Origin: Roseateles oligotrophus
GTDB lineage: Bacteria > Pseudomonadota > Gammaproteobacteria > Burkholderiales > Burkholderiaceae_C
NCBI RefSeq assembly: GCF_014204525.1
Contig: NZ_JACHLP010000012.1
Span: 62,001-126,000, forward strand
Length of the DNA: 64,000 nucleotides
Reading direction: 5' to 3'
In this document: positions 905 to 17,311 of the stretch, piece after piece
How positions within the stretch are numbered: position 1 is the first letter of the stretch
How the letters are laid out: every line of letters begins with the position of its first letter
Notes under the pieces: model-generated
Database searches by the model: none
What the model was told of the DNA's origin: nothing
The model's input: the letters and a program-made list of their open reading frames with translations, nothing else
Made by a program: the position numbers and the translations under genes

Positions 905-932
905 TTGATTACTTGCTTCGCTCGATTAATAG
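905..932 (+). promoter_or_regulatory. Possible promoter of the prs-nadV-nrtR cluster
   Basis: TTGATT at 905-910 and TAATAG at 927-932, 16 bases apart, resemble weak -35/-10 boxes just upstream of prs. An imperfect inverted motif GATG-N7-CATC follows at about 932-946 and could be a regulator site, for instance for the downstream NrtR-like protein. Both are pattern readings with poor consensus matches. Confidence 0.3.
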
Positions 933-963
933 ATGTACGATGCATCAAACGAATAGGTAAATC

Positions 964-1827
964 ATGCAATCCAAGCTGACTCTTCATTCATCCCTCACCC
1001 CCGATAGCCGCGAGGCCGGCCGGGAGCACCCGGGCATCCAGTGCCTTGGCTTTCCGGGCGGCGAGCGCCATGTGCGCTTGCCCGAGAGCGTGCTCGGCTC
1101 CACGGATCGCTGCTGGATGATCACGGCCGGCCTCTACTCGGCCGAGGGAGTGATGGAGCTGTTGTTGTTGAGCGATGCGCTCAAGCGCGCGATCCCGGTG
1201 GAGGCATCAATTCATCTGCAATTGCCCTATGTGCCTTATGCCCGCCAGGACCGTGTCGCCGTTGAAGGCGAGCCGCTGTCGGCCGCGGTTTTCTGCCAGT
1301 TGATCAACAGCGCCGAGTTCGCCTCCGTCACGGTGAGCGACCCGCATAGCGATGTTGTCTCCGCTCTGCTGAAAAACGTCCGCATCATTCCAGCGGCTCA
1401 TTATGTTCAACAGCTGCGCGAGGGCGCCCTGGCTCATGTCCCGGCGCTCGCCGTCGTCGCGCCCGACGCCGGCGCGCGCAAGCGCGTCGAGACCGTTGCC
1501 AAGGCGATCGGAGCCCCGGTGGTCTATGCAAGCAAGCGTCGCAACCCCCTGAGCGGAAAGCTCAGCGATGCCGCCGTCGAGTCCGAGTTGCCCGAGCTTC
1601 CTCTGCTGGTGGTGGACGACATCTGCGACGGTGGTGGCACCTTCATCGCCCTGGCCGCGGCGCTGCGCGAGCGCAGCCGCCAGTCGCTCTACCTCTACGT
1701 GACCCACGGGCTCTTCACCAAGGGGCTGGCGCCGCTGACGCCGCATTTCGACGCCATCTTCACCCCCTTCTGCGCCGACCCCGCCCTGGCCGAGCAGACC
1801 TGCATCCACCGCGCCAAGCCCGCCTGA
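964..1827 (+). CDS. prs: Ribose-phosphate pyrophosphokinase (PRPP synthetase family)
   Basis: The 287-residue protein matches the PRPP synthetase family, which makes 5-phosphoribosyl-1-pyrophosphate from ribose-5-phosphate and ATP. The PRPP-binding loop is visible as LLVVDDICDGGGTF near residues 218-231, with a SKRRNPLSGK flexible-loop segment around 195. It is shorter than housekeeping Prs (about 310-315 residues) and resembles the divergent forms paired with nicotinamide phosphoribosyltransferase. It is followed after 41 bases by nadV, which consumes PRPP, so it probably serves as a dedicated supplier. The ATG at 964 has only a weak ribosome-binding site (TAGGTAA). Confidence 0.9.
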   Translation: MQSKLTLHSSLTPDSREAGREHPGIQCLGFPGGERHVRLPESVLGSTDRCWMITAGLYSAEGVMELLLLSDALKRAIPVEASIHLQLPYVPYARQDRVAVEGEPLSAAVFCQLINSAEFASVTVSDPHSDVVSALLKNVRIIPAAHYVQQLREGALAHVPALAVVAPDAGARKRVETVAKAIGAPVVYASKRRNPLSGKLSDAAVESELPELPLLVVDDICDGGGTFIALAAALRERSRQSLYLYVTHGLFTKGLAPLTPHFDAIFTPFCADPALAEQTCIHRAKPA

Positions 1828-1868
1828 CAGCCTGGCCCCGTCATTCAAGAAACACCGAGGAGGAACCC

Positions 1869-3455
1869 ATGAAAATCAACCCGCTGAACCTGATCGACTT
1901 TTACAAATCGGGCCATGTCTTCCAGTACCCCGAGGGCACGCAGAAGGTGTACTCGAACTTCACGCCGCGCTCGGACCGGCTGGCGCCGGTGCTGCGCGAA
2001 GGCCCCGGTGCTTTTGATGGGCGGGTGCTCTTCTTCGGCCTGCAGGGTTTCATCAAGGAGTTTTTGATCGAGCTGTTCGACCAGCAGTTCTTCCAACTGC
2101 CCAAGGAGCAGGCCGTGCGCCGCTACCAGCGCCGCATGGATAACGCCTTAGGCCCCGGTGCCGTGCCCGTGCATCACATCGAGGCGCTGCACGAGCTGGG
2201 CTATCTGCCCGTGCGCATCAAGGCCCTGCTCGAGGGCTCGCTGGTCAATCTCAAGGTGCCGGTCTTCACCATCACCGAGACCCTGCCCGCCTTCTTCTGG
2301 CTGGTGAACTATCTGGAAACCATGCTCTCCAACGGCGTCTGGAAGCCGATGACCGTGGCCACCATCGCGCGTCAGTACCGCCGCCTGCTGGAGGTCTTTT
2401 GCGAGCAAACCGGCGCTGACCCCAGCTTCATCGACTGGCAGGCCCATGACTTCTCGGCCCGCGGCATGGCCAACCCCGAAGACGCCAGCCGTTGCGGGGC
2501 CGGCCATCTGGTCAGCTTCTGCGGCACCGATACCGTCTCGGCCATCGATTATGTGGAAGACTTTTACGGCGCCGACAGCGACAAGGAGCTGCTGGGCGGC
2601 TCGGTGCCCGCCACCGAACACAGCGTGATGAGCATGGGCGGCCAGCTCGACGAGGTTTCTACCTTCCGCCGCCTGATCACCGAGGTGTACCCGAGCGGCA
2701 TCGTCAGCATCGTCTCCGACACCTGGGACTTCTGGCAGGTGATCACCCACCACGCCGTGACGCTCAAGGCCGAGATCCTGGCCCGTCAGCCCAATGCCCT
2801 GGGCCAGGCCAAGGTCGTGTTCCGCCCCGACTCCGGCGACCCGGTGCTCATCCTGACCGGCTATCTCGACGCAGAACTGGCCCGCGATGCGGCGGGTGAG
2901 TTCCTGCGTGACGAGCTGGGCCGCTACACCGTGGGCCACAACGGCCACTTGATTTCGGATGCCGAACGCCGCGGCTCCGTGCAATGCCTGTGGGACATCT
3001 TCGGCGGCACCGAGACCGCCAAGGGCTACAAGGTTCTGCATGAGCGCGTGGGCTTGATCTACGGCGACTCCATCACCCTGGAGAGGGCGCAGCAAATCTT
3101 GTCGCGCCTGCAAGCCAAGGGTTTTGCCTCGGGCAATGTGGTGCTGGGTGTTGGAAGCTATAGCTATCAGTACCTGACGCGCGACAGTTTCGGCATGGCC
3201 ATGAAGGCCACGGCGGGCATCGTCGGCGGCGAGCTGCGCGAGCTGTCCAAGGACCCCAAGACCGACAGCGGCGTCAAGAAGTCGGCCGTGGGCTTGCTGC
3301 GTGTGGAGAAGGTGGGCGGGGACTATGTGCTCCTCGATCGCCAGACGCCCGAGCAAGAGGCTCAAGGCCTGTTGGAGCTGGTGTTCGAGAACGGCAAGCT
3401 GCTGCGCGAGCAGAGCTTTGCCGACATCCGTGCGCGGGTGAGAGCCGATGCCTGA
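1869..3455 (+). CDS. nadV: Nicotinamide phosphoribosyltransferase (NadV/NAMPT family)
   Basis: The 528-residue protein starts MKINPLNLIDFYKSGHVFQ, typical of bacterial NadV and eukaryotic NAMPT, which join nicotinamide and PRPP to give NMN. The core contains HDFSARGM (near 193-200), the FRPDSGDP substrate-binding segment and GVGSYSYQ. A strong ribosome-binding site (GAGGAGGAAC) precedes the ATG. The gene sits between prs (making its co-substrate) and an NrtR-like regulator. Together they form a compact NAD-salvage unit that bypasses deamidation of nicotinamide. Length and motifs are complete. Confidence 0.95.
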   Translation: MKINPLNLIDFYKSGHVFQYPEGTQKVYSNFTPRSDRLAPVLREGPGAFDGRVLFFGLQGFIKEFLIELFDQQFFQLPKEQAVRRYQRRMDNALGPGAVPVHHIEALHELGYLPVRIKALLEGSLVNLKVPVFTITETLPAFFWLVNYLETMLSNGVWKPMTVATIARQYRRLLEVFCEQTGADPSFIDWQAHDFSARGMANPEDASRCGAGHLVSFCGTDTVSAIDYVEDFYGADSDKELLGGSVPATEHSVMSMGGQLDEVSTFRRLITEVYPSGIVSIVSDTWDFWQVITHHAVTLKAEILARQPNALGQAKVVFRPDSGDPVLILTGYLDAELARDAAGEFLRDELGRYTVGHNGHLISDAERRGSVQCLWDIFGGTETAKGYKVLHERVGLIYGDSITLERAQQILSRLQAKGFASGNVVLGVGSYSYQYLTRDSFGMAMKATAGIVGGELRELSKDPKTDSGVKKSAVGLLRVEKVGGDYVLLDRQTPEQEAQGLLELVFENGKLLREQSFADIRARVRADA

Positions 3456-3513
3456 GCCGCAGCTTGGGCGAGCCAGAGACCTGCCGTCCCTTGCAGAGGA
3501 AAGCCCGAGAGCC

Positions 3514-4200
3514 ATGTTCAAGACCCCCATCCTCACCGTCGACGCCGTCATCCTCACCTTGGTCGGTGACAAGCTCATGGTCGGTTTGATGCGGCGCAGT
3601 GACGCGCCTTGCGCCGGCCAGCTGGCCTTGCCGGGCGGCTATGTCCACGCGGACCCCGAGGCCGGCAAGGTCGATGCTTCCACGGGCGATGCCATGCTGC
3701 GGATCTTGCGGAGCAAGCTGGGCTTCAGGCCCAGCCATCTGGAGCAGGTCTGCACCGCCTCCGGTCCCAAGCGCGACCCGCGCGGCTGGTCCGCCAGCGT
3801 GGTACATCTTGCGCTGCATCAGCAGGAGGTGGTGCAACCTCTGGTGGACGCTGGCAAGCTCGAAATGCACGAGCTGATCCCGACCTTGACCCTGAAGGCG
3901 CGTGACCTGGCTTTTGACCATCTGCAACTTGTTGACACAGCGCTGGCGCGTCTGAAAGCCAAGGCCAGCTACTCCACCATCGTCGCCCACCTGCTGCCCA
4001 AGGTGTTTCGCATGTCCGACCTGCAAGCGGCCTACGAGATCGTCACCGGCGTGCCGACCAACAAGGACAACTTCCGCCGCAAAGTTCTGGACGAAGCCGT
4101 GCTGGTGGAGGCCGAGCTGCTGCGCCACTCCGGCGGGCGCCCCGCCCAGGGCTACAGCTTGCGGGAGGAGCTGGCGATTCTGGGGCGGCAGATCAGCTGA
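3514..4200 (+). CDS. nrtR: NrtR-like regulator (Nudix domain plus winged helix)
   Basis: The 228-residue protein has an N-terminal Nudix fold (ILTVDAVILTL..., then LALPGGYVH) and a C-terminal winged-helix segment (about 150-228, with GVPTNKDNFRRKVLD). This is the architecture of NrtR, the ADP-ribose-sensing repressor of NAD genes. The Nudix box lacks the usual REUXEE glutamates (MLRILRSKLGF), as expected for a sensor rather than a hydrolase. An alternative ATG at 3448 overlaps the nadV stop by 8 bases and would add 22 atypical residues; 3514 fits homologous N-termini better. It probably controls its own operon in response to NAD status. Confidence 0.85.
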   Translation: MFKTPILTVDAVILTLVGDKLMVGLMRRSDAPCAGQLALPGGYVHADPEAGKVDASTGDAMLRILRSKLGFRPSHLEQVCTASGPKRDPRGWSASVVHLALHQQEVVQPLVDAGKLEMHELIPTLTLKARDLAFDHLQLVDTALARLKAKASYSTIVAHLLPKVFRMSDLQAAYEIVTGVPTNKDNFRRKVLDEAVLVEAELLRHSGGRPAQGYSLREELAILGRQIS

Positions 4201-4230
4201 GACCCAGCGAGACGGAGTCGTGCGCCAGGT

Positions 4231-6862: not shown

Positions 6863-6899
6863 GGGGCAGGTCTTGCCTATAGATTCGAGACTTGACCCC
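6863..6899 (+). repeat. 37-bp palindromic repeat, copy A
   Basis: Degenerate copy of a palindrome whose arms read GGGGTCAGGTCTTGCC / GATTCGAGACCTGACCCC around a TATA centre. Related copies lie at 7341-7377 (B), 7564-7586 (C, truncated) and 11209-11244 (D, inverted). It overlaps the upstream edge of the unknown gene at 6925. The 200 bases before it (6640-6860) hold no recognisable gene. Confidence 0.75.
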
Positions 6900-7284: not shown

Positions 7285-7340
7285 TTGATGACCTGAGCAG
7301 ACCTTTCTGTCTGCCGGGCGTGTTGTGGATCGACGGAAGC

Positions 7341-7377
7341 GGGGTCAGGTCTTGCCTATAGATTCGAGACCTGACCC
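7341..7377 (+). repeat. 37-bp palindromic repeat, copy B
   Basis: Best-preserved copy: GGGGTCAGGTCTTGCC, a TATA centre, then GATTCGAGACCTGACCC. It is followed by short tandem repeats of GACCTGACCCTCAAGCC at 7380-7420. Copy D at 11209-11244 is the same element in inverted orientation. Confidence 0.85.
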
Positions 7378-7454
7378 TCAAGCCTTGCCGAGACCTGACC
7401 CTCAAGCCTGACCCTCAAGCCATAGGCTCGGACTTGGACGGGAAGAAGAAAAGC

Positions 7455-7480
7455 CAGCGGCCATGGGGCGCTGTTTTTTT
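7455..7480 (+). terminator. Possible intrinsic terminator
   Basis: CAGCG-G-CC / GG-G-CGCTG stem (one mismatch) with an ATG loop, followed directly by seven T residues. It would end transcription coming from the unknown gene at 6925-7284 and insulate the downstream island. Confidence 0.55.
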
Positions 7481-7563
7481 GCTCTGGCGGGTGACGAGTG
7501 GAATCGCAGGCAGATAGCAACAGGGCAGGGCGGCAGGTTAGCCGAGATGCACGCAGTTGAGAG

Positions 7564-7586
7564 GCTTTAGATTCGAGACCTTACCC
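7564..7586 (+). repeat. Truncated palindromic repeat, copy C
   Basis: GCTTTAGATTCGAGACC plus TTACCC is half of the palindrome. It shares the CTTTAG variant with inverted copy D (11209-11244), whereas A and B read CTATAG. C and D therefore form the closest matching inverted pair around the reverse-transcriptase locus. A second TTACCCTCAAG follows at 7600-7610. Confidence 0.6.
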
Positions 7587-7689
7587 TCAAGCTTTCATTA
7601 CCCTCAAGTTTCATATGCACCAGTGCAGGCTCTTTCGGCCAACCCAGTTACAGGTGAATCTCTCGACTTGAGTCTTGAAGGGCCCTACC

Positions 7690-7935
7690 AAAAAGTATTT
7701 GCCAAACGATATCTCAATCGATTGGTGACCCCCCAAACATTCCGATCGTGTGTCCTTCGCACCAACCTGTTCGCTTGGCGACGCGTGGGCAAGCAGGATA
7801 GTTCTCGCGTCGGTTCAAACACGCGTGAGCGTGTAAGTGTTCTAAGGCAGCAGACTCTTACGTAGCAGTCCTTTGCCTAAGTCTGGATTTGACCTAAGGC
7901 GGCCATGTTTGAGGGGTCGCACCTATTGTTGCACA
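7690..7935 (-). ncRNA. Candidate DRT3-associated non-coding RNA
   Basis: The stretch directly downstream of drt3b on the minus strand has no credible gene but contains several hairpins. These are a 9-bp stem with one bulge at 7875-7900, an ACACGC/GCGTGT stem at 7819-7834, a GCTTG/CAAGC stem at 7773-7794, and CCAA-U-CGAU / AUCG-U-UUGG at 7702-7725 followed by a U5 run at 7694-7690 that could terminate it. Between the last two hairpins the minus strand reads ACACAC (7753-7748). Characterised DRT3 systems are reported, from memory, to use an ACACAC template inside an ncRNA. The boundaries and strand are inferred; no expression evidence is available. Confidence 0.5.
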
Positions 7936-9942
7936 TTAATACGGTGTCCTGAGTTGCTTCCGCTTGAGTACATCATCCAAGCGAACTTCCTTCGACCAGT
8001 TGAAAAACCAGACTTCTCTAGCTGCGATTTCAAGGAAGTTCTTAGCTCTCGCATTGAGGTCAGCATTGCCTTTGTGAACTAGTGCAGCCTTTACAATTGC
8101 AGTCTTGTCATCGATATTCAAGAAAGGACAGGAGGATATGTCGAGAAGTAACATAGTTAAATCTGCTCGATGAAACCACTCGAATTCGTCTGCAAAAATA
8201 TCCTTTAATCTTTCGATTATTAGGTCTTTGATAGGCTGATATTCAATCTCGTTGTTGCAGATGTAAAGCGCCGAAACAAGCTGAAAATAGCCTAAGTGGG
8301 AAACGGTTCGCTTTCCTTTTTTTATGTTATCGAGTCCAAAGGCAGTGCATAGTTGTTGAGAATTGATGCCATAGTTCCCTCCTAGTGTTTGAAGTACAGT
8401 AAGAAGGTTTAGGGCCTCAATATTGTCGTTTGCATTTGAACTGAATCCTCTTGTGGTTGTAAACTTAATCTCTTGAGAGATTTTTGTGAAAATTCTCTCG
8501 GAGAATGTGCCTGGTCCCAGACGGGCGAAATCAATAATCGCAAGAACGATTTCGGAGGTTAGATAGGTTTGTCGAACTCTTGGGCTACTGGCATACAGAA
8601 AGAATAGAATATCTAGGATGGCCAATAAAAAGTTGGCGATTGAGTCGATCTGCGTGGAGTCAGATAGCGACTCCTTCATCTTTCCCGTATACCTCCAAAC
8701 TAGTCTCTTTAGGGCAGCGAGAAAGTAATTTGAAGATGTATCGAATGTCGCGTTGTGGGTCTTTAAGTGTTTTTTAATGTCGCGAATTGTAGAGTTTGCC
8801 AAGTCGCTACTAGACCGAATCCTGGCAGCCCGCCTTACTGTTTCCGGATTGATCAATGGTGGTCGAACAACGTCTTCGGTCTTTATCGCCCTATCGAATG
8901 TCTCGGATATGGTTGAAGCGATCTCCATTCTTGCTGAGGTTTCTGCAGTCGAAAACGGCCGTTCCATGGTAACCGTCTTGGAGTCGTTGAGGCTCAATCT
9001 GTAAGGGTGCAAGCATTCAGAAATGCAGAGTTGAATTTTCGATAGATTTTCCTTGGAGTTGGAGAAAACAAAGTAGTCATCGACATACCTCCTGATTTCA
9101 TACTCGAGGCCGCAAGATAGTGGTGGGTTGTGCTCGAGTAAAGACTTTTCGATGTCCAGATCAATTTGCTGAAGGATTGATTCAGCGAATACTCTGGAGA
9201 CCTCGGGTCCAACAATAATTCCGGCGGTCTCGTTATAGTTGCTGCATTGCATTAGCCTATCAAAATTTGACTCAAAATTATCGGTGCTGGATCCCCGAGA
9301 ATTTCTTTTTGCATAGTCTTTACTCTTTACAGCCCATCCTATGGTATGGGTGTAAATTCTTCCAAAGCATTGGGTAATGTCTAGCTTAAGAAGCAGGCTA
9401 AACCTTTTTTCAAGGTCGTGAAATTCGCTGGATTCAAAGAACTTGTGTAGCAGCGTGTATTTTTCGTAAGAGTAGAAGGAAGAAGCGGTTCGAGATACAG
9501 ATGAGAAACCGTCCGACTTTGCTTCTATGCCTTTGCTTCTACCAGATAGAGGGCGTCTTACTCGAGATTTTTCAACATAATAAGATGCAACAGAGGATGG
9601 CGCGCGCAAGGACCATTTGCTCTTTTTGCATTGGGCTAATATTGCCCCAGAATATTTTCTATAGAAATCGGCGACAGCTATTTGTTGGCACGGATGCATG
9701 ACAGAAAGTGACCGAAATTCCGTCGGATTCTTTTTGATTTTGTAATTGTATGGAATGGTGTACTTCTGATCGGCAAACAGCGAAAACTTGCATGCTGTGT
9801 CTAGCGCTTTTGGTCCGTGCTTTTTTAGGAAATGGTAAAATCCTTCATTTGAAAATAGTAGTGGAACTTCGTATGGAAGCGTGTCGGTCAAAATTGCGCG
9901 GAAATGGTCAGACTTCCTTACTTTTATAATTTTTTTATGCAT
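7936..9942 (-). CDS. drt3b: Anti-phage reverse transcriptase Drt3b (DRT type 3)
   Basis: This 668-residue protein has reverse-transcriptase motifs: motif A LLLKLDITQCF (Asp about 188), motif B-like GIIVGPEVSRVFAE (about 241-254) and catalytic YVDD (286-289). A long helical C-terminal region (about 340-668) follows. Length, the paired RT partner and the YVDD context fit Drt3b (UG8 group) of the DRT3 defence system. The ATG at 9942 has a GGGGAG ribosome-binding site and overlaps drt3a by 8 bases; a TTG at 9969 is the longer alternative. Codon use is strikingly AT-rich compared with the GC-rich neighbours, a sign of horizontal transfer. Stop is followed by the candidate ncRNA. Confidence 0.85.
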   Translation of the reverse strand: MHKKIIKVRKSDHFRAILTDTLPYEVPLLFSNEGFYHFLKKHGPKALDTACKFSLFADQKYTIPYNYKIKKNPTEFRSLSVMHPCQQIAVADFYRKYSGAILAQCKKSKWSLRAPSSVASYYVEKSRVRRPLSGRSKGIEAKSDGFSSVSRTASSFYSYEKYTLLHKFFESSEFHDLEKRFSLLLKLDITQCFGRIYTHTIGWAVKSKDYAKRNSRGSSTDNFESNFDRLMQCSNYNETAGIIVGPEVSRVFAESILQQIDLDIEKSLLEHNPPLSCGLEYEIRRYVDDYFVFSNSKENLSKIQLCISECLHPYRLSLNDSKTVTMERPFSTAETSARMEIASTISETFDRAIKTEDVVRPPLINPETVRRAARIRSSSDLANSTIRDIKKHLKTHNATFDTSSNYFLAALKRLVWRYTGKMKESLSDSTQIDSIANFLLAILDILFFLYASSPRVRQTYLTSEIVLAIIDFARLGPGTFSERIFTKISQEIKFTTTRGFSSNANDNIEALNLLTVLQTLGGNYGINSQQLCTAFGLDNIKKGKRTVSHLGYFQLVSALYICNNEIEYQPIKDLIIERLKDIFADEFEWFHRADLTMLLLDISSCPFLNIDDKTAIVKAALVHKGNADLNARAKNFLEIAAREVWFFNWSKEVRLDDVLKRKQLRTPY

Positions 9943-11158
9943 GTGCCCAGACTCCCCGTGCTTCGCCAAGTTGTTTATTCTTGAAGTGTCGAAAAACGGG
10001 CGCTGAGTGGCCCTTGAGAAAAGAGTGGCTGCATATATGTCTACGCTGCGCGTTGTTAAGTCGGCTACTTAATTTTGTACCAATACTCCCGGTCTTTGAG
10101 TACACGAGCTTTTGTAAAAAGCAATCTAGCTCTTTGAATATCGTTGTGGCCGATTCTTTGTTAATGTACTGATGATTGTAGTAAATTCCGGAATATAGGG
10201 TTCCGTTTTGTTTTGAGCCCCCAACCTTAAAGTTGCTTGTGAGGAATCTTATTCTAAGAATTAGGTCTTCATATTTTTCGTCGCGAATGTATTGCATTAT
10301 TGAAATTGCAATGCGAGATTTAATTTTTGAAACTTTCTTCTCTGGTATGGAGACAGTGAATTTGTCTTTCTTTGTGCTGGGGAACTTGATGGAGTAGCCT
10401 AGGTAAGATATTTCTCTGCTGGCGGATGTCTTTGACCCAGTGATTCCATCTTTGTCTATTTTAATGCATGTGGTTTTTCTGGCATTTAAAGTAAGGCCAG
10501 TTGGGAGTAGTTTATTTATGTCGCTCTCGATAGTTGATGCATCTCCATGGCAAAAGAATAGTGCGTCATCGACATATCGAGTATAGAAATAGCAGTATGG
10601 AAGTCTACGGCACCCATCTTCGAACTTGCGTAGGTAATATTCGGATAAGATGGAGCTCACTGAAAGCCCACGAGGGAGTCCTGCGCTATGTTTTATTTGA
10701 TCTGAATTGAATAGATTTGCGATCAATTGAATCGTCTTTGGGCTAACGGTGGGCTCTAGTTTTAGATCTATCAATAGTCTTGAGCGATCAATGCTTTCAA
10801 AAAATCCTTTGATGTCGAATTTGTGAATTGTTTCATCCTTTGCCTCTTTCGCTAATTGAATTACTTGCGGAACAATTGAATTCCTGTCGGCGGAACTGAT
10901 ATTAAGTGCTCGCCGCAAGTTGTCTGCTATTTTCCGCAAAACGAATTCATCGGCAGCAGTACTGGAGGTTAGGACGAGGCAACCATTTCGAATTTGGGTC
11001 TTGAAAGACGAGAAGGCGAAGTGTTCATCCTGCACTTGCGTCTCAATGTCGCTTAGTGAAAGTCGTATGGCTGAATTGCCGACGCCCAATGAGTATTTTT
11101 CGGGGTCACCTCTTCTTAAAAGTCTCCAGAAAGACTTCGTAGAGAAACTTTGGTCCAT
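9935..11158 (-). CDS. drt3a: Anti-phage reverse transcriptase Drt3a (DRT type 3)
   Basis: The 407-residue protein is a compact reverse transcriptase: motif A HKFDIKGFFESID (Asp 115), motif B SAGLPRGLSVSS (about 158-169), catalytic FYTRYVDDALFF (YVDD 195-198) and a thumb-like region beyond 250. It matches Drt3a (UG3 group), which pairs with Drt3b. Characterised systems are reported, from memory, to copy an ncRNA template into repeat DNA. The ATG at 11158 follows GGGAG at good spacing; a GTG at 11170 would add four residues. It is the first gene of the two-gene operon and is equally AT-rich. Confidence 0.87.
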   Translation of the reverse strand: MDQSFSTKSFWRLLRRGDPEKYSLGVGNSAIRLSLSDIETQVQDEHFAFSSFKTQIRNGCLVLTSSTAADEFVLRKIADNLRRALNISSADRNSIVPQVIQLAKEAKDETIHKFDIKGFFESIDRSRLLIDLKLEPTVSPKTIQLIANLFNSDQIKHSAGLPRGLSVSSILSEYYLRKFEDGCRRLPYCYFYTRYVDDALFFCHGDASTIESDINKLLPTGLTLNARKTTCIKIDKDGITGSKTSASREISYLGYSIKFPSTKKDKFTVSIPEKKVSKIKSRIAISIMQYIRDEKYEDLILRIRFLTSNFKVGGSKQNGTLYSGIYYNHQYINKESATTIFKELDCFLQKLVYSKTGSIGTKLSSRLNNAQRRHICSHSFLKGHSAPVFRHFKNKQLGEARGVWAHA

Positions 11159-11208
11159 CTTCACTCCCACTAAGTATTCGCTTCGGGGTCCACGCTTCGC
11201 ACCGCTTC

Positions 11209-11244
11209 GGGGTCAGGTCTCGAATCTAAAGGCAAGACCTGACC
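11209..11244 (-). repeat. 36-bp palindromic repeat, copy D (inverted)
   Basis: GGGGTCAGGTCTCGAATC...GGCAAGACCTGACC is the reverse complement of the left-hand copies A-C. It lies about 50 bases upstream of drt3a, so the drt3 promoter must lie in or next to it. Two direct copies of CGCTTCGGGGTC occur at about 11179-11190 and 11203-11214. GC content returns to the host level beyond this point. Confidence 0.85.
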
Positions 11245-11387
11245 TCCACCCCTCAATGATCAAAATGCGACCCCAGCATCGTCGCATCGTTTTCAATGGC
11301 CATGCTGTTGAGTTTGTTCGCTAGCTTGCGCATCAGCACGCCGGAGGCGCTTCGTATGGCGGAGTCGAGTTGGCTGACCCAGGCCGA

Positions 11388-12563
11388 CTACTTGGCCACA
11401 GCGTTCAACCCCGGCAAATACACCCCCGCAATCTTGTCAATAAACGCCTGCGGCGAAGCCCCCATCAAATTGCTCAGAAAAATCACCGTGAGATCGTCGT
11501 TAGGGTAGATGAAAACGGCCGCACGCGCGCCGCCGGTGAGGGCGAACGCGGGATGCAGGGGGCGTTGAATGCTTGGAAAGCCCAGGCCGTAGCCGTTGAT
11601 GACGGCGTTGAAGCCGCGCTGCGTGCCGTCTTTGAGCAGCTGCGGTTTCAAGAGCTGTTCCAGGCTGCTCTTGTTCACCAGCTTCAGGTCTTGCAGCGCA
11701 ATCACCCATTCGGCCAGATCGGTGGAGGTGGTACGGATGCCGCCGATGGGGAAGAACATGTCTGCCAGCGGCTCGTGGCGCAGCAAGGGCGTCGCGCTGC
11801 GTTCGACGCCGACCGTTTTCATGCCCTTGATTTGCGGCGTTACGATGGTGTAGAGCGTGGCCACCGGCGGCTTGATCACGGCGGTGTCGGTGAAGCCGCT
11901 GAGCTGCATGCCCGCGGGCTTGAATTGCCGGCTGCGCACGAACTCGGCGTAAGACTGGCCGCTGATTTTTTCGATCAGCTTGCCGACGACGACGTAATTG
12001 GTTTGCGAATACTCAAAACGCGTGCCGGGCGCAAAGTTCAGCGGCAGCTCCTGCACCTTGGCCCAGGCCTGCTCGGGCTCGGCGCCGCCCAGCGGGCGGG
12101 CGTTGTCGTCGATGACTTCGGGCAGGCCGGAGGTGTGGGTCAGCGCTTGTCGGATGCTGACTTCGGCCCAGGCCGGCGGCAGGGTCTTGAGATAGCTGGC
12201 CAGGGGCGCGTCGAGATCGAGCTTGCCCGCTTCCACCAACTGCATCACCGCCACGCCGGTCACGGCCTTGCTGATGGAGTTGATGCCGAAGATGGTTTGC
12301 TTCGTCACCGGCGCCCCGGTCTCGAGATTGGTCTGGCCGTAGGCGCCGGTGAACACAATCTTGCGGCCCTGCACCACCGTCAGCTGGGCGCCGGGGATGC
12401 CGCGCGCGCTCATCTCGTTCCGGACTAGGCGCTCGACGGCGGCCGCCTTGTTATCGGCCTCGGCCTCGGCGGCCTCGGCGGCCACGGGGGTGTGGGCGTA
12501 GGCGCAGCCGCCCATGCTGCTCAGCGCCGTGATCAGGCAGATGGCGGTGGAAATCTTGTGCAT
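11388..12563 (-). CDS. Serine hydrolase of the beta-lactamase class C/EstB family
   Basis: The 391-residue protein has an exported N-terminus (MHKISTAICLITALSSMGGC), perhaps a lipoprotein with Cys about 22. The class C serine motif SISK is in GINSISKAVTG, followed by a YSQTNY motif in place of YxN and a LTGG motif in place of KTG near the end. Such proteins are penicillin-binding-protein-like peptidases or esterases of the cell envelope and are seldom true beta-lactamases. The ATG at 12563 has a GGAG ribosome-binding site; the longer frame to 12611 adds 16 non-signal residues. It lies just outside the DRT3 island, with a small gap to the permease operon. Confidence 0.88.
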   Translation of the reverse strand: MHKISTAICLITALSSMGGCAYAHTPVAAEAAEAEADNKAAAVERLVRNEMSARGIPGAQLTVVQGRKIVFTGAYGQTNLETGAPVTKQTIFGINSISKAVTGVAVMQLVEAGKLDLDAPLASYLKTLPPAWAEVSIRQALTHTSGLPEVIDDNARPLGGAEPEQAWAKVQELPLNFAPGTRFEYSQTNYVVVGKLIEKISGQSYAEFVRSRQFKPAGMQLSGFTDTAVIKPPVATLYTIVTPQIKGMKTVGVERSATPLLRHEPLADMFFPIGGIRTTSTDLAEWVIALQDLKLVNKSSLEQLLKPQLLKDGTQRGFNAVINGYGLGFPSIQRPLHPAFALTGGARAAVFIYPNDDLTVIFLSNLMGASPQAFIDKIAGVYLPGLNAVAK

Positions 12564-12674
12564 CGTTCTTGCTCCGTCCCTGGTTGAGGTGAGCGAGCTT
12601 TTATCAGACAAGACGGCAGTCTTGGGCCGGGCCCCGCATTTAACGCTTGTTTTGGGCGCATCTCGCCCGCCGCT

Positions 12675-14474
12675 TCAGTGGTCGAAGTGCAGCCGCAGCA
12701 GCGCCATATCGTCGCTGATGGCCGTGCTGCTGAGCTTGTCCGCCAAGTTGCGCATCAGCACGCCGGAGACACCTTGCATGGCGGAGTCGAGCCGGCTGCC
12801 GTCTTCGTCGTTATCGCCGTCCAGCAGGGCGTGCAGATCGACGGTGCTGTACGGCATGGCCGTTAGGCCTAGCGGCAGGGGTGGGCCTTCGTGCAGCAGC
12901 TCCAGGTCGAAGTTGAATTCGTCGAAGCTGCCGTTCAGGGCCAGCACCCGGCCGCCGCCGGCGGCCTGGATGGCTTCGCTGGCCTCCAGCGCGGCGAGAG
13001 CGGCGCGGCGCACGATGTCCATGCGGGCGCCCCAGGCGCCGCCCTGGCGTTCGACGAAGGCGGTGATCTGGTGCGTCAGCGGGTCCAGGGCGGGGTCCAG
13101 CGCGCTGTGGGCGCTGCGCCGCGTGCCCAGGCGGAACAGCAAGTTCAGCAGCAGCACCGTCAAGCCCGCCACCACAAAGCCGTCACCGGCCAGAAAGCGC
13201 AGGCTCTCCGGCAGGGTTTGCGAAAGCCCGGGCATCAGCATCGTGGCCAGGCCGGCGCAGAGCGAGAGGCCGACCATGAAGATGCCGCGGCTGTCCAGCG
13301 CGCGGGTGGCGATCAGCTCGATGCCCGAGACGATCAGATAGGCCGCGGCATACAGCTCCACCGCGCCCAGCACGGCGTGCGGGATCAGGGTTAGGGCCAG
13401 GGTCAGCTTGGGGCTCAGCGCGGTCAGCAGCAGCAGGCCGGCGGCCACCAGGCCGATGACCCGCGAGCTGGAGCCGGTGGCATGCACCAGGGCGATATTG
13501 GCCGAGCTGGGTGCCGTCGGGAAGCTGCCGAACAGGCCGCTGAGCAGGTCGCTGACACCGTTGGCGCGGATGCCGCGGCCCACCATCTGCATATCGGCGC
13601 GGCGCCAGTCGGCGTTGTTGGTTTTGTCCATCACGATCAGGCAGCCGATATTGTCCAGCTGGTTCAGCGCCGCGATCAGCACGATGGCCAGCAGGATCTC
13701 GGGCCCCAGCGTGAAGCTGGGCGTGATGGGCTGGGGCAGGGCCAGCAGGGGCGCGCTGCTGACCCATTCCATGCCGACCAGGCGGCCGCTTACTGCTGCG
13801 ATCAGCAAGCCAGCCAGAATGCCCATCATCAAGCCCAGCAGCTTGAAGCGCCGCCCGCCCCAGACCGATAGCGCCACGATGCTGGCCAGGGCCGTGCCCG
13901 AGATCAGCGCGCTGACGCCGTCCAACTGCATCTGCGCGTTCACGCCCAGGGCGTTGCGCACCGCCGGCTCCACCAGGGCCAGGCCGCCCATGCAGATCAC
14001 CGTGCCCACCACGGGCGGCGGAAAGAGCGGGCGCAGAAAGCGCATCACAGGCCCCAGGCCGACGGTGACCAGGGCTGTGACCACCGTCACCTGTACCAGG
14101 GCGCCCACGCCTTGCGAGGCGATGGCGGCGCCGGCCACGGTGATCATCATCGGGTCGGGCTGGAACACCAGCAGCGTGCCGCTGCCCCAGCGCCCGCCCC
14201 AGGCCTGCAAGGCCGTGCCCATGGCCATGCCCAGCAGGGTGACGGCCACGATGGAATGGGTTTGCGGCAGGCTCAGGCCGGCGATCTTGGCGGCCGCCAG
14301 CACATGGGTGATCAGGGCCAGCACCGTGGCCGCATGCTGCAGCGAGAGCAGGCCCAGGGCGGCGGGTGGCGGGCACTCGTCGGCGGCGTAGATCAGCTCG
14401 AAGGGCCGGCGGCCGGGCTTGGAGGGCGGCAGCCAGCGCTGCAGCCCTTGCGACAGCAGCTGCTGCAAACTCAT
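12675..14474 (-). CDS. NCS2 nucleobase permease fused to an extra C-terminal domain
   Basis: Residues about 40-470 form a multi-pass nucleobase:cation symporter-2 (xanthine/uracil permease) core, with LNQLDNIGCLIVMDKTNNAD and a GSFPTAPSSANIALVHATGSSSR stretch. Residues about 475-599 form a soluble tail that looks like a decayed histidine-kinase-type ATPase: HQITAFVERQGGAWGARMDIVRRAALAALEASEAI, with no clear G boxes. Ordinary NCS2 permeases end near 450-480. The gene overlaps the STAS gene by four bases (ATGA) and is last in a partner-switching operon, so the tail may let the STAS protein control transport. This coupling is inference. Confidence 0.85.
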   Translation of the reverse strand: MSLQQLLSQGLQRWLPPSKPGRRPFELIYAADECPPPAALGLLSLQHAATVLALITHVLAAAKIAGLSLPQTHSIVAVTLLGMAMGTALQAWGGRWGSGTLLVFQPDPMMITVAGAAIASQGVGALVQVTVVTALVTVGLGPVMRFLRPLFPPPVVGTVICMGGLALVEPAVRNALGVNAQMQLDGVSALISGTALASIVALSVWGGRRFKLLGLMMGILAGLLIAAVSGRLVGMEWVSSAPLLALPQPITPSFTLGPEILLAIVLIAALNQLDNIGCLIVMDKTNNADWRRADMQMVGRGIRANGVSDLLSGLFGSFPTAPSSANIALVHATGSSSRVIGLVAAGLLLLTALSPKLTLALTLIPHAVLGAVELYAAAYLIVSGIELIATRALDSRGIFMVGLSLCAGLATMLMPGLSQTLPESLRFLAGDGFVVAGLTVLLLNLLFRLGTRRSAHSALDPALDPLTHQITAFVERQGGAWGARMDIVRRAALAALEASEAIQAAGGGRVLALNGSFDEFNFDLELLHEGPPLPLGLTAMPYSTVDLHALLDGDNDEDGSRLDSAMQGVSGVLMRNLADKLSSTAISDDMALLRLHFDH

Positions 14475-14824
14475 AGCGGGCAGGCGGCCAGCTGGCGCAG
14501 GGCGGTGGCGCGTTCGTCGACCGTGTCGATGATCTTCAGAAAGCCGCTGATCTCGAAGACCTCGCGCACATGCGGGGCCAGGCCGCAGAGCAGCAGCTGG
14601 CCCTGGCCCTGCTTGGCGCGCTTGGCCACCATCAGCACCACGCGCAGGCCGGCGCTGGAGATGTAGTCCACGCCGGCGAAGTCCAGCACGGCGCGGCGGC
14701 CGGGGGCGCTGAACAGCTCCAGCACGGCCTGCTCGAAGGTGGCGGCGCTGGCGCTGTCGATGCGGCCGCGCAGGCTCACCAGCTGGCTGCCTTGCTCGTC
14801 CTGGCGTTGGTGTTCGAAGCTCAT
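14471..14824 (-). CDS. STAS-domain anti-sigma factor antagonist (RsbV/SpoIIAA-like)
   Basis: The 117-residue protein is a single STAS domain. DYISSAGLRVVL around residues 53-64 contains the serine normally phosphorylated by an RsbW-type kinase and dephosphorylated by a SpoIIE-type phosphatase. Both partners are encoded directly upstream in the same operon (14829-15278 and 15275-17311). It overlaps the downstream permease by ATGA. In such systems the unphosphorylated form binds the kinase or another target. No sigma factor is encoded nearby, so the output may be the permease tail. Confidence 0.93.
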   Translation of the reverse strand: MSFEHQRQDEQGSQLVSLRGRIDSASAATFEQAVLELFSAPGRRAVLDFAGVDYISSAGLRVVLMVAKRAKQGQGQLLLCGLAPHVREVFEISGFLKIIDTVDERATALRQLAACPL

Positions 14825-14828
14825 AGAT

Positions 14829-15278
14829 TCATCCTTGTCGCTTGAGGGTTTTGAACAGCACGATCAGATTGCCGCTGCCGTCGTAGAAGGCGCGCACGTC
14901 GTCCATCATGTTTTTGACCAGATGCACGCCCAGGCCGCCCATGGGGCGCTCCTCCACCTCGGCATCCAGGCTGGGTTCGGGGGCTTGCTCGAAAGGGTCG
15001 AAGGGCGGGGCGTCGTCTTTGAGCTTGATCTCCAGCCACTCGTCGGAGCGCGAGATGCGGATGTGGATGTAGCGGTCCGGCGCGCCCTGCAGGCCGTGCT
15101 GGATGATGTTGGTGATCAGCTCCTCCAGGCACAGATTGACGGCAAAGGCCAGGTCGGGGCGCTGCACCAGCGCCCGGCTAACGGCTTGCGCAAGCGGGGC
15201 GATTTCTTCCACCCGGCTGGCCAGGCGGTAGTCCAGCAAGCGGGTGGTGTGCTTGAGTTGCAGAGGTGCACGGCTCAC
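14829..15278 (-). CDS. RsbW-like serine kinase (HATPase_c_2 anti-sigma factor)
   Basis: The 149-residue protein is a GHKL ATPase of the anti-sigma kinase type. The N box is LCLEELITNIIQHG and the G1/G2 region is MGGLGVHLVKNMMD. A GTG start at 15278 overlaps the SpoIIE stop in GTGA and follows a strong AAGGAG; the longer frame to 15329 would overlap its neighbour by 55 bases. It is expected to phosphorylate the STAS protein encoded four bases downstream. Confidence 0.9.
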   Translation of the reverse strand: MSRAPLQLKHTTRLLDYRLASRVEEIAPLAQAVSRALVQRPDLAFAVNLCLEELITNIIQHGLQGAPDRYIHIRISRSDEWLEIKLKDDAPPFDPFEQAPEPSLDAEVEERPMGGLGVHLVKNMMDDVRAFYDGSGNLIVLFKTLKRQG

Positions 15279-17311
15279 GTTGAGCTCTCCTTGGCCATCA
15301 AAAAACCGGGATGCGGGGATTTGCGGCACAGCAGCAGGGCGGTCAGGTCGTCCGAGGCCTCGGCCTCGCCGACAAAGGCCGCCACATCGGCCACCAGGCT
15401 GCCCAGCTTGTCGGCCGCGGCCTCGCCCTGGCTGCCGGCCAGCCAGGCTTGCAGCCTGGCCTCGCCGTAGGCATGGCCTTGGCTGTTGAAGGCCTCGGTG
15501 ATGCCGTCGGTGTAGAGCAGCAGGGTGTCGCCGGGCTGCAGCTGGGCTTGCTGGTCGCTATAGCTCATGCCGGGCAGCACGCCCAGGGCCATCTCGCAGG
15601 CGCAGGCCAGTGCCTGCAGCCGGCCGCCGGGCTGGCGCAGCAGGGGCGCGGGGTGGCCGGCGCAGGCGTAGACCAGCTCGCCGCTCGCGGGGCTGTAGAT
15701 GCCGTAGCAAGCCGTAACGAAGAGTTCCATCGGATTGCGGGCGCTCAGCGCCTCGTTGGTGCGCGCCAGCACCTCGGCCGGGGCCAGGCCGGACTGCGCC
15801 AGGTCTTGCAAGACGGTGCGCGAGACGGCCATGAAAAAGGCCGCGCCCACGCCCTTGCCCGCCACATCGGCGACGAGGAAGCCCCAGCGCCCGTCGGCCA
15901 GGGCAAAGCAGTCGTAGAAGTCGCCGCCCAGCTCGCGCGCGGGGTGCATGCAGGCGCGCATGGAGAACTCGGCCGTGTCCGGGAAGTGCTGGGGCAGGAT
16001 GGCTTGCTGCATATCGCGCGCCGAGGCCAGCTCTTCCTGCACCCGCAGGGCGGCCAGGTGCAGCTGCTCGTTCTTGTCGGCCAGCTCCAGGGTGCGCAGC
16101 TGCACCAGGCGTTCCAGCTCGCGCTGGCGCGATTCGTTCTGCTCGCGGATCACGTCCAGCAGCCGGCCCACCTCGGCCGCCACGCTGTTGAAGTTGCCCG
16201 CCACCAGCACCAGCTCGTCCTGCGTGTCGACGCGGATGCGGGTGTCCAGCCGGCCGGCGCAGAAGTCCTGCGTGCCTTGCGAGAGCTGGCGCAGCGAGCG
16301 CAGGGTCGAGACGTAAATGCCGGCGAACAGATAGGCGATGGCCGCCATCGCCCCCACCAGCAGGGCGCCCACCTGCCACTGGCTGCGCTGCAAGGCGGCC
16401 AGCCGCGCCTCCAGGCGGGCATCGGCCTGGGCGATGCTGGCGGCCGCCAGGGCGCGCACCTGGGTCAGATTGGTCTGGGCCAGGGGGCGCAGCTCCTCGA
16501 TGGCGGCGGGCCGGTCCAGCACCTTGTCCACCGCGTCCTGCTGGGCCTCGACGCCGCCGAGCAAGGTGTGCAGCTGGGCCTGCAGGCGCGCGTCCTGCTC
16601 GCCCGCCAGCAGCTGGCTCATGCCCGCGCGCAGCGGCGGCATGGCCTCGCTCAGCACCACCTGGGCGGCCACGGCATAACTGGCCATGTCATCGCTGGCC
16701 AGGTTGAGGGCGTCGCGTTGCTTGGCCAGGGTTTCCTGCAGCAGGGGCAGGCGGTGGGCCAGCATGTCGAAGGCGGCGTCCAGCGTCGGGTCCACGCTGA
16801 GGCGGTGCACGCGCGCGCTTTCGCGCATCAGGGCCAGCAAGGCATTGATGCTGCCGGTGTGGGCGGCGAAGCGGCGCTGCGCCTCGTCCCGCGGGCTCAG
16901 GGCCAGTTGCTGCAGCCAGTGCTGCTGCAGGCGGGTGGCCAGCTCGGGCAGGGCGTTAGGCCCCGGGCCGGCCTGTTTGGCCCAGTGCTGCAGGCGCTGC
17001 ATCTCGGTGGCCAGCTGGTTCAGCTCGGCCAGGCCGGGGGCGTTGGCGGCGGGCTGGCCGCGCAGATTGATCAGGCCGGCCAGCAACTGGCCTTGCTGGG
17101 CCAGGGTGGCCAGGCCGCGGCGTTCCAGCTCGGCTTGCTGGGCCTCCAGCGTGCTCTTGCGCAGCAGTGGCCAGCTCAGCAAGGCCAGGGCCAGCAGCAT
17201 CACCGCGCCCACCAGCAGGAATTTGCGCGAAAAGGAAAGCCGCCCCGACAACCAACTGGCCGGCGCCAGCAGCCGCGGCAGGGCCGCGCCGGCGTGGATC
17301 AGCATGCTCAT
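15275..17311 (-). CDS. Membrane-bound SpoIIE-type PP2C phosphatase with HAMP domain
   Basis: The 678-residue sensor has a first membrane helix (about 29-49), a periplasmic helical sensor (50-315), a second helix (about 316-337), a HAMP segment, a coiled coil (about 395-440) and a C-terminal SpoIIE/PP2C phosphatase domain. Metal-binding motifs are visible as GGDFYDCF, VADVAGKGVGAA and LLLYTDGITEA. It probably dephosphorylates the STAS protein when its periplasmic sensor is engaged. It overlaps the upstream PstS-like gene by four bases (ATGA), which suggests that the periplasmic protein delivers the signal. Confidence 0.93.
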   Translation of the reverse strand: MSMLIHAGAALPRLLAPASWLSGRLSFSRKFLLVGAVMLLALALLSWPLLRKSTLEAQQAELERRGLATLAQQGQLLAGLINLRGQPAANAPGLAELNQLATEMQRLQHWAKQAGPGPNALPELATRLQQHWLQQLALSPRDEAQRRFAAHTGSINALLALMRESARVHRLSVDPTLDAAFDMLAHRLPLLQETLAKQRDALNLASDDMASYAVAAQVVLSEAMPPLRAGMSQLLAGEQDARLQAQLHTLLGGVEAQQDAVDKVLDRPAAIEELRPLAQTNLTQVRALAAASIAQADARLEARLAALQRSQWQVGALLVGAMAAIAYLFAGIYVSTLRSLRQLSQGTQDFCAGRLDTRIRVDTQDELVLVAGNFNSVAAEVGRLLDVIREQNESRQRELERLVQLRTLELADKNEQLHLAALRVQEELASARDMQQAILPQHFPDTAEFSMRACMHPARELGGDFYDCFALADGRWGFLVADVAGKGVGAAFFMAVSRTVLQDLAQSGLAPAEVLARTNEALSARNPMELFVTACYGIYSPASGELVYACAGHPAPLLRQPGGRLQALACACEMALGVLPGMSYSDQQAQLQPGDTLLLYTDGITEAFNSQGHAYGEARLQAWLAGSQGEAAADKLGSLVADVAAFVGEAEASDDLTALLLCRKSPHPGFLMAKESST

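Follow-up and report, generated by a model that had tools for sequence, protein, structure and literature searches.

A pair of reverse transcriptases of the DRT3 type

The window analyzed here is a stretch of 64,000 nucleotides (nt) of the Roseateles oligotrophus contig NZ_JACHLP010000012.1 (positions 62,001 to 126,000). Two open reading frames (ORFs) for reverse transcriptases (RTs) follow each other on its minus strand: drt3a (9935-11158) encodes a UG3-type (class 2) RT of 407 residues, and drt3b (7936-9942) a UG8-type (class 1) RT of 668 residues that continues into a helical tail. The ORFs share 8 nt, ATGCATAA, with the start codon of drt3b lying within the end of drt3a. An earlier note, made from the sequence alone, had placed both ORFs at these positions, had ascribed a complete catalytic centre to each protein and likeness to the RT core alone, and had recognized in them an acquired pair of the anti-phage type DRT3 (UG3 plus UG8); all of this was borne out. 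We consider it very probable that the locus is a complete DRT3 anti-phage system, horizontally acquired by a Comamonadaceae-type betaproteobacterium.

The assignment is carried by profile scores. Both proteins exceed the Pfam RVT_1 cut-off, and both exceed the curated NCBIfam cut-offs for DRT3: Drt3a scores 349 bits with NF041747 (cut-off 200) and Drt3b 650 bits with NF041748 (cut-off 350), the corresponding PADLOC models giving E-values of 1.9e-114 and 9.8e-206. Outside the RT core the two proteins are dissimilar, and each scores highest with the models of its own type; Drt3b matches Drt3a models only weakly (9.6e-9 and 1.8e-7 in two profile searches). The RT core also draws weak matches from retron, group II intron and Abi models, as would be expected if two unrelated RTs of such kinds simply happened to be adjacent. 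We give this explanation a practically negligible probability: these models score far lower than the DRT3 models for both RTs, no model of another RT family comes within 200 bits of the top Drt3a and Drt3b models, the Rfam scan of the window found no family at gathering thresholds, and the order Drt3a-Drt3b is seen again in loci of several phyla. The profile check proposed in the earlier note thus refutes adjacent RTs of other families.

Sequence matches in the PDB point the same way. The best match of Drt3a in the PDB by sequence is 9z6y_A, a chain labelled Drt3a (2.2e-34). Drt3b matches 26cz (3e-122) and then 9z6y_H, labelled Drt3b (4e-94); the 26cz record is a SUMO fusion whose label reads just RNA-directed DNA polymerase, and we take it to be a Drt3b. 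An AlphaFold2 model of Drt3b, built from 30 sequences (predicted local distance difference test, pLDDT, 83.9; predicted template modelling score, pTM, 0.86), is nearest in fold to UG15/DRT4, DRT6 and AbiK (Foldseek E-values from 3.6e-15 to 8e-13). These predicted fold neighbours are class 1 RT relatives, as expected; no DRT3 structure stands among the 50 Foldseek matches listed (library to 8 April 2026), so that the fold comparison is no test of DRT3 itself.

The catalytic centres of both RTs are intact. In Drt3a, the motif A aspartate is residue 115 and the YVDD motif comprises residues 195-198 (10565-10576); across 91 aligned Drt3a sequences the Asp pair of YVDD is kept in every one and D115 in 90, with one gap. 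For Drt3b, residue numbers could be carried over from Escherichia coli. The Drt3b of the E. coli locus L185 is probably the EcoDRT3 protein of PMC13174585: it has 667 residues, and its Glu22, Arg241 and Tyr666 agree with the numbering in that source, which makes the published numbers directly transferable. In the alignment to L185, E22 corresponds to E25 of the window protein, R71 to R77, D182 to D188, F187 to F193, R241 to R250, Y276-D279 to Y286-D289, and Y666 to Y668. The window therefore has the putative adenine gate, E25 (9868-9870), with its role assigned from PMC13174585; the cytosine gate or switch, R250 (9193-9195); the YVDD motif at residues 286-289 (9076-9087); and the priming tyrosine, Y668 (7939-7941), which is the C-terminal residue. 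Every residue of the published model that we tested is thus present in Drt3b, at the gates, in the catalytic centre and at the priming tyrosine.

We surveyed relatives in genome contigs (the best 80 of 569, ranked by similarity to the window protein), viral contigs (22 loci), plasmids (7 of 170 matching records), E. coli (3 of 15) and further genomes; because loci were chosen by similarity, the sample is biased towards relatives of the window. The viral loci came from an alignment query, the single-protein query P0002 finding no relative in viral contigs. At the DNA level there was no match to window positions 7300-11400 among plasmids or to the window drt3b among E. coli genomes; a Kosakonia drt3b matched 15 of 5426 E. 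coli genomes. Removing 13 loci with Drt3b at least 90% identical left 106 of 119; this set took in L190-L212 and L241, left out L213-L240 and L242-L259 (short, weak or partial matches), and lost L211 on score. A second set, of 93 loci, drops L001 and L119 (both the window itself), L006 (the same as L038), L138 (part of L137), L107 (the same as L002), L113 (the same as L004) and RT matches whose Drt3b score does not exceed 300.

The equivalent of R241 is Arg in all 106 loci. At the E22 position, 94 loci have Glu and 10 have Asp; Moraxella caprae (L066) has His, and L051, a record with a truncated N-terminus, has Arg. The priming tyrosine is found in 90 of 93 loci. According to PMC13174585, E22 and R241 are highly conserved, E22D is a frequent variant and the ACACAC motif of the RNA is conserved (41 systems); our survey extends that published conservation. 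The earlier note had also named TQCF in Drt3b motif A as a feature that would be informative, which the alignment does not support: C192 (92/93) and F193 (93/93) are conserved, and T190 (5/93) and Q191 (2/93) occupy variable positions where the usual letters are S (71/93) and K (64/93).

A candidate noncoding RNA downstream of drt3b

The DRT3 mechanism, as published in PMC13174585, requires a noncoding RNA (ncRNA), which in E. coli sits downstream of drt3b. This third component was overlooked in the earlier note, and we find good evidence for it here. The boundaries given in the note contain both genes; the functional unit probably reaches about 250 nt past the left one. The candidate ncRNA occupies 7690-7935 of the minus strand, an E. 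coli-like position. Its ends are approximate, and its closing helix sets a minimum of 7727-7918. The predicted folding energy of 7690-7938 is -84.4 kcal/mol (z score -3.27), a stability that none of 200 shuffles reached. The scan for tRNAs found none in the window.

The putative template of Drt3a is ACACAC at 7748-7753, 185 nt from the drt3b stop and the single AC triplet repeat in the 600 nt past that stop on the coding strand. It lies in a 15-nt block, AGGACACACGATNGG (7756-7742), that is also found in Hydrogenophaga flava (L118) and Pseudomonas gessardii (L039); among 178 loci, these two and three copies of the window are the sole carriers of the exact pattern. The downstream regions of H. 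flava, P. gessardii and the window share AGGACACACGAT, at 12 nt their longest common string, compared with at most 9 nt in 1000 mononucleotide shuffles. Across the 93 regions, window included, (AC)3 appears within 260 nt of drt3b in 85; 50 dinucleotide shuffles gave 10.2 regions on average and 17 at most, and the other five dinucleotides were at background. In the 106-locus set, (AC)3 lies within 260 nt downstream in 97 loci and at least two and a half AC units in 102, part of which may be chance (L048 is counted through an ACACA outside the expected place). The four remaining loci are L105, which is frameshifted; L199, with (AC)4 at nt 264; and two from Snodgrassella, L067 and L097, in which Drt3a and Drt3b are intact and no AC motif occurs in the 600 nt after drt3b. 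The Snodgrassella RNA may be elsewhere or lost. Family-wide, the template stands either about 27-51 nt or about 70-264 nt from the drt3b stop, which suggests at least two ncRNA architectures; the short-distance class consists mostly of loci with a Drt3b ending in SQEVY or similar.

A 14-bp helix, with all 14 pairs formed between the 5' arm (7905-7918) and the 3' arm (7727-7740, 7 nt past the template), would enclose the RNA with the template just inside. The counterpart in H. flava has 13 bp, and in a gapless register set by us from the inner end, 7 of these pairs show two-sided changes relative to the window, 1 a one-sided change and 5 none. Six other Burkholderiales loci have an analogous 10-pair helix, which we picked from those same sequences. 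It is paired in 96.6% of cells (1 of 500 shuffles), slid versions being paired in 47%-64%; four of its pairs are changed on both sides, a number reached by 11 of 500 shuffles, and the count of cells changed on both sides and the covariation score were each reached by 1 of 500. We also tested the closing helix as a duplex in 65 loci whose template lies 75 nt or more past the drt3b stop. Left out were L067 and L097, which have no motif, L105, which is frameshifted, L038, which is at a contig end (its downstream part is L118), and loci for which the motif chosen was closer to the stop than 75 nt. In 32 of the 65, at most 5 of 100 shuffles were as good; for the window it was 1 of 100.

Several results weigh against this RNA or its structure. 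An AC repeat arises in 310 of 2000 shuffles of the window's own 260 nt, and when the whole window is shuffled, 27 of 100 versions contain the 15-nt block with up to two mismatches (the actual match being exact); the window's ACACAC is thus weak by itself, and it is the comparison with relatives that makes it strong. Promoter-like sites are no more frequent than expected by chance, and the minus strand of 7300-11500 shows no terminator-like site. In the window, the hairpin immediately 5' of the template is no stabler than shuffles (z -0.44). For the six-locus helix, further pair types were as high in 489 of 500 shuffles, and the duplex test is individually weak in H. flava (9/100), P. gessardii (10/100) and E. 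coli L185 (30/100). Finally, a sequence-only Infernal model of 13 relatives, the window excluded, had no match in the window. RNAalifold returned no common pair on the 13-relative alignment; the RNAs are probably too divergent for MAFFT to align them well enough. In sum, support is good for the template and fair for the closing helix, but does not extend to the full RNA structure.

Acquisition and the insertion site

The earlier note had read the AT-rich composition of the pair as a sign of acquisition, and the genomic context supports this. The GC content of drt3a is 0.419 and that of drt3b 0.425, against 0.674 for window positions 14500-64000, and at third codon positions the values are 0.43 and 0.45, against 0.92 for the permease gene and 0.86 for the TonB receptor gene. 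The host genome has one Drt3b, and five genomes of the same genus gave no Drt3b match. Both flanks of the site have counterparts in a sister genome, G144 (window 912-4201 aligns at 85% and 11384-17167 at 88%), and between them 2.3 kb of other genes, including uridine kinase-like and acetyltransferase-like ORFs as read from their translations, replace DRT3 and the TonB receptor. Another genome, G794, has a second copy of the permease 3' end, with an ORF between it and the permease that is RAYT-type transposase-like, again as read from its translation. The different contents in G144 and G794 make this a variable site.

The same features can be read as those of a relic, that is, of recently arrived junk or decaying genes that do not work in this host: the DNA is AT-rich and acquired, Drt3b is without a match in the five related genomes, and degenerate repeats lie close by, as does an incomplete duplicate of a gene end. 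We see only a slim chance of this. Both ORFs are full-length, with their catalytic, gate and priming residues and the gene overlap intact, and the ncRNA keeps its template and paired arms; decay would not be expected to spare all of these. The host also encodes recB, at 916 bits over a cut-off of 696, and recC, at 963 bits over one of 583, so that the RecBCD guard of the published mechanism could operate here.

A near-perfect palindrome of 34-36 nt, GGTCAGGTCTTGCCT[A/T]TAGATTCGAGACCTGACC, occurs in the window at 7342-7377 (plus strand), 11210-11244 (minus strand) and 6863-6898 (plus strand), so that DRT3 is bracketed by copies in inverted orientation. With up to three mismatches allowed, the 5.3-Mb genome contains one further copy, close to the end of this contig, for 4 in total. 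We set aside the idea that the palindromes are the ends of a transposable cassette, because 8 of 18 genomes of the genus (host included) carry the repeat in low copy number, and it also stands at the G144 site without DRT3; it looks like an intergenic repeat of the repetitive extragenic palindrome (REP) type. In G144 (locus L179), copies at 11668-11699 and 11841-11876 lie just upstream of a gene for a protein of 704 residues (12064-14178), GHKL-type ATPase-like by reading, beyond which is a 41-nt piece resembling window 7422-7462. The C-terminus of this protein is weakly nuclease-like (VRR_NUC 0.0024, HSDR_N 0.0027, both below cut-off) and PADLOC gave no match to the gene. It may be a further, uncatalogued defence gene in the neighbourhood of this site. 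Just upstream of drt3a, the permease 3' end is duplicated (11253-11376 versus 12675-12798; 124 nt, 76% identical); G794 likewise has its second copy near the RAYT-like gene. Such copies may mark repeated insertion there.

Proposed mechanism and comparison with known systems

DRT3 is a reported case of protein side chains directing sequence-specific DNA synthesis (PMC13174585). Of such a system, the sequence shows both RTs with the key residues tested, the RNA template, a closing helix and the host genes recB and recC. The function is most likely that of E. coli DRT3, and the steps below are carried over from that system as described in PMC13174585. Drt3a would bind the downstream ncRNA and repeatedly copy its ACACAC loop into poly(dTdG). 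Drt3b would prime on its C-terminal Tyr668 and add dC and dA in alternation, yielding poly(dCdA), with Glu25 and Arg250 standing in for a template. The two products would anneal to a repeat duplex, which host RecBCD would clear; once a phage put RecBCD out of action or set the system off in some other way, the duplex would build up and halt the infected cell. For the window locus we infer, by this analogy, transcription of the RNA, the synthesis, its product, the complex, the trigger and the defence itself.

With Drt3a 32% and Drt3b 36% identical to the E. coli proteins, and an ncRNA barely alignable beyond the template, one might ask if the window system makes a different product or plays a different role. 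This seems very improbable to us: the gate residues and the ACACAC template are the same as in E. coli, and a search of the 106 loci for altered gates paired with an altered template found no such combination. A natural gate variant is seen in Moraxella caprae, the Drt3b of which has His at the adenine gate (TQPYHMPI) with the downstream template, CACACACAC, intact. A bolder claim, about which we are doubtful, is that RNA template and Drt3b gates, two independent codes, are locked to the TG/CA duplex across phyla since either half is useless alone; the lock-breakers, namely the Snodgrassella pair and M. caprae, would then make another product or use Drt3b alone.

The window locus, taken as a DRT3 system that works like that of E. 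coli, is a far-diverged test case in which the tested gate and primer residues are retained and a candidate ncRNA can be mapped. Since the same gates and template recur in several phyla, the sequence of the product, beyond its repetitiveness, appears to be under selection, which is relevant to the question why the effector consists of TG/CA repeats. The system type is known; the window adds a divergent example, and a candidate RNA to the recognized enzymes. Among the papers listed in searches for DRT3, none dealt with DRT3 in Comamonadaceae, and we claim no priority.

Among known systems, the class 1 RTs AbiK, DRT4 (UG15) and DRT6 resemble the window Drt3b model in predicted fold. They are single-gene systems, not known to have a partner RT or RNA. 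For DRT4 and DRT6 the single-gene organization is given in PMC13213688, and protein-primed synthesis is reported for class 1 RTs in PMC13174585. H. flava (L038/L118) is the closest relative among the matches listed, with Drt3a 50% identical and Drt3b about 55% over the part present. It has the same block as the window, AGGACACACGAT.GGAATG, and a closing helix of the same type; in contrast, its hairpin 5' of the template is far stronger than that of the window (z -7.13), and its DRT3 locus is split across two contigs. P. gessardii (L039), in which Drt3a and Drt3b are each 38% identical to those of the window, shares the template offset of 185 nt along with the AGGACACACGATNGG block, the C-termini of this pair being ELRTPY and QLRTPY. 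E. coli L185, for its part, has Drt3a, Drt3b and ncRNA in the same order on one strand and the ACACAC template, and its E22, R71, R241, Y666 and both catalytic centres are all matched in the window. In E. coli, however, the template lies 131 nt from the drt3b stop rather than 185, and the priming tyrosine is the last residue but one rather than the last. Two E. coli loci, L185 and L186, are chromosomal, with an integrase on one side and phage-satellite-like genes (ogr/Delta-like, polarity suppression) on the other, whereas the neighbours scanned in the window are a TonB receptor and a beta-lactamase-family hydrolase.

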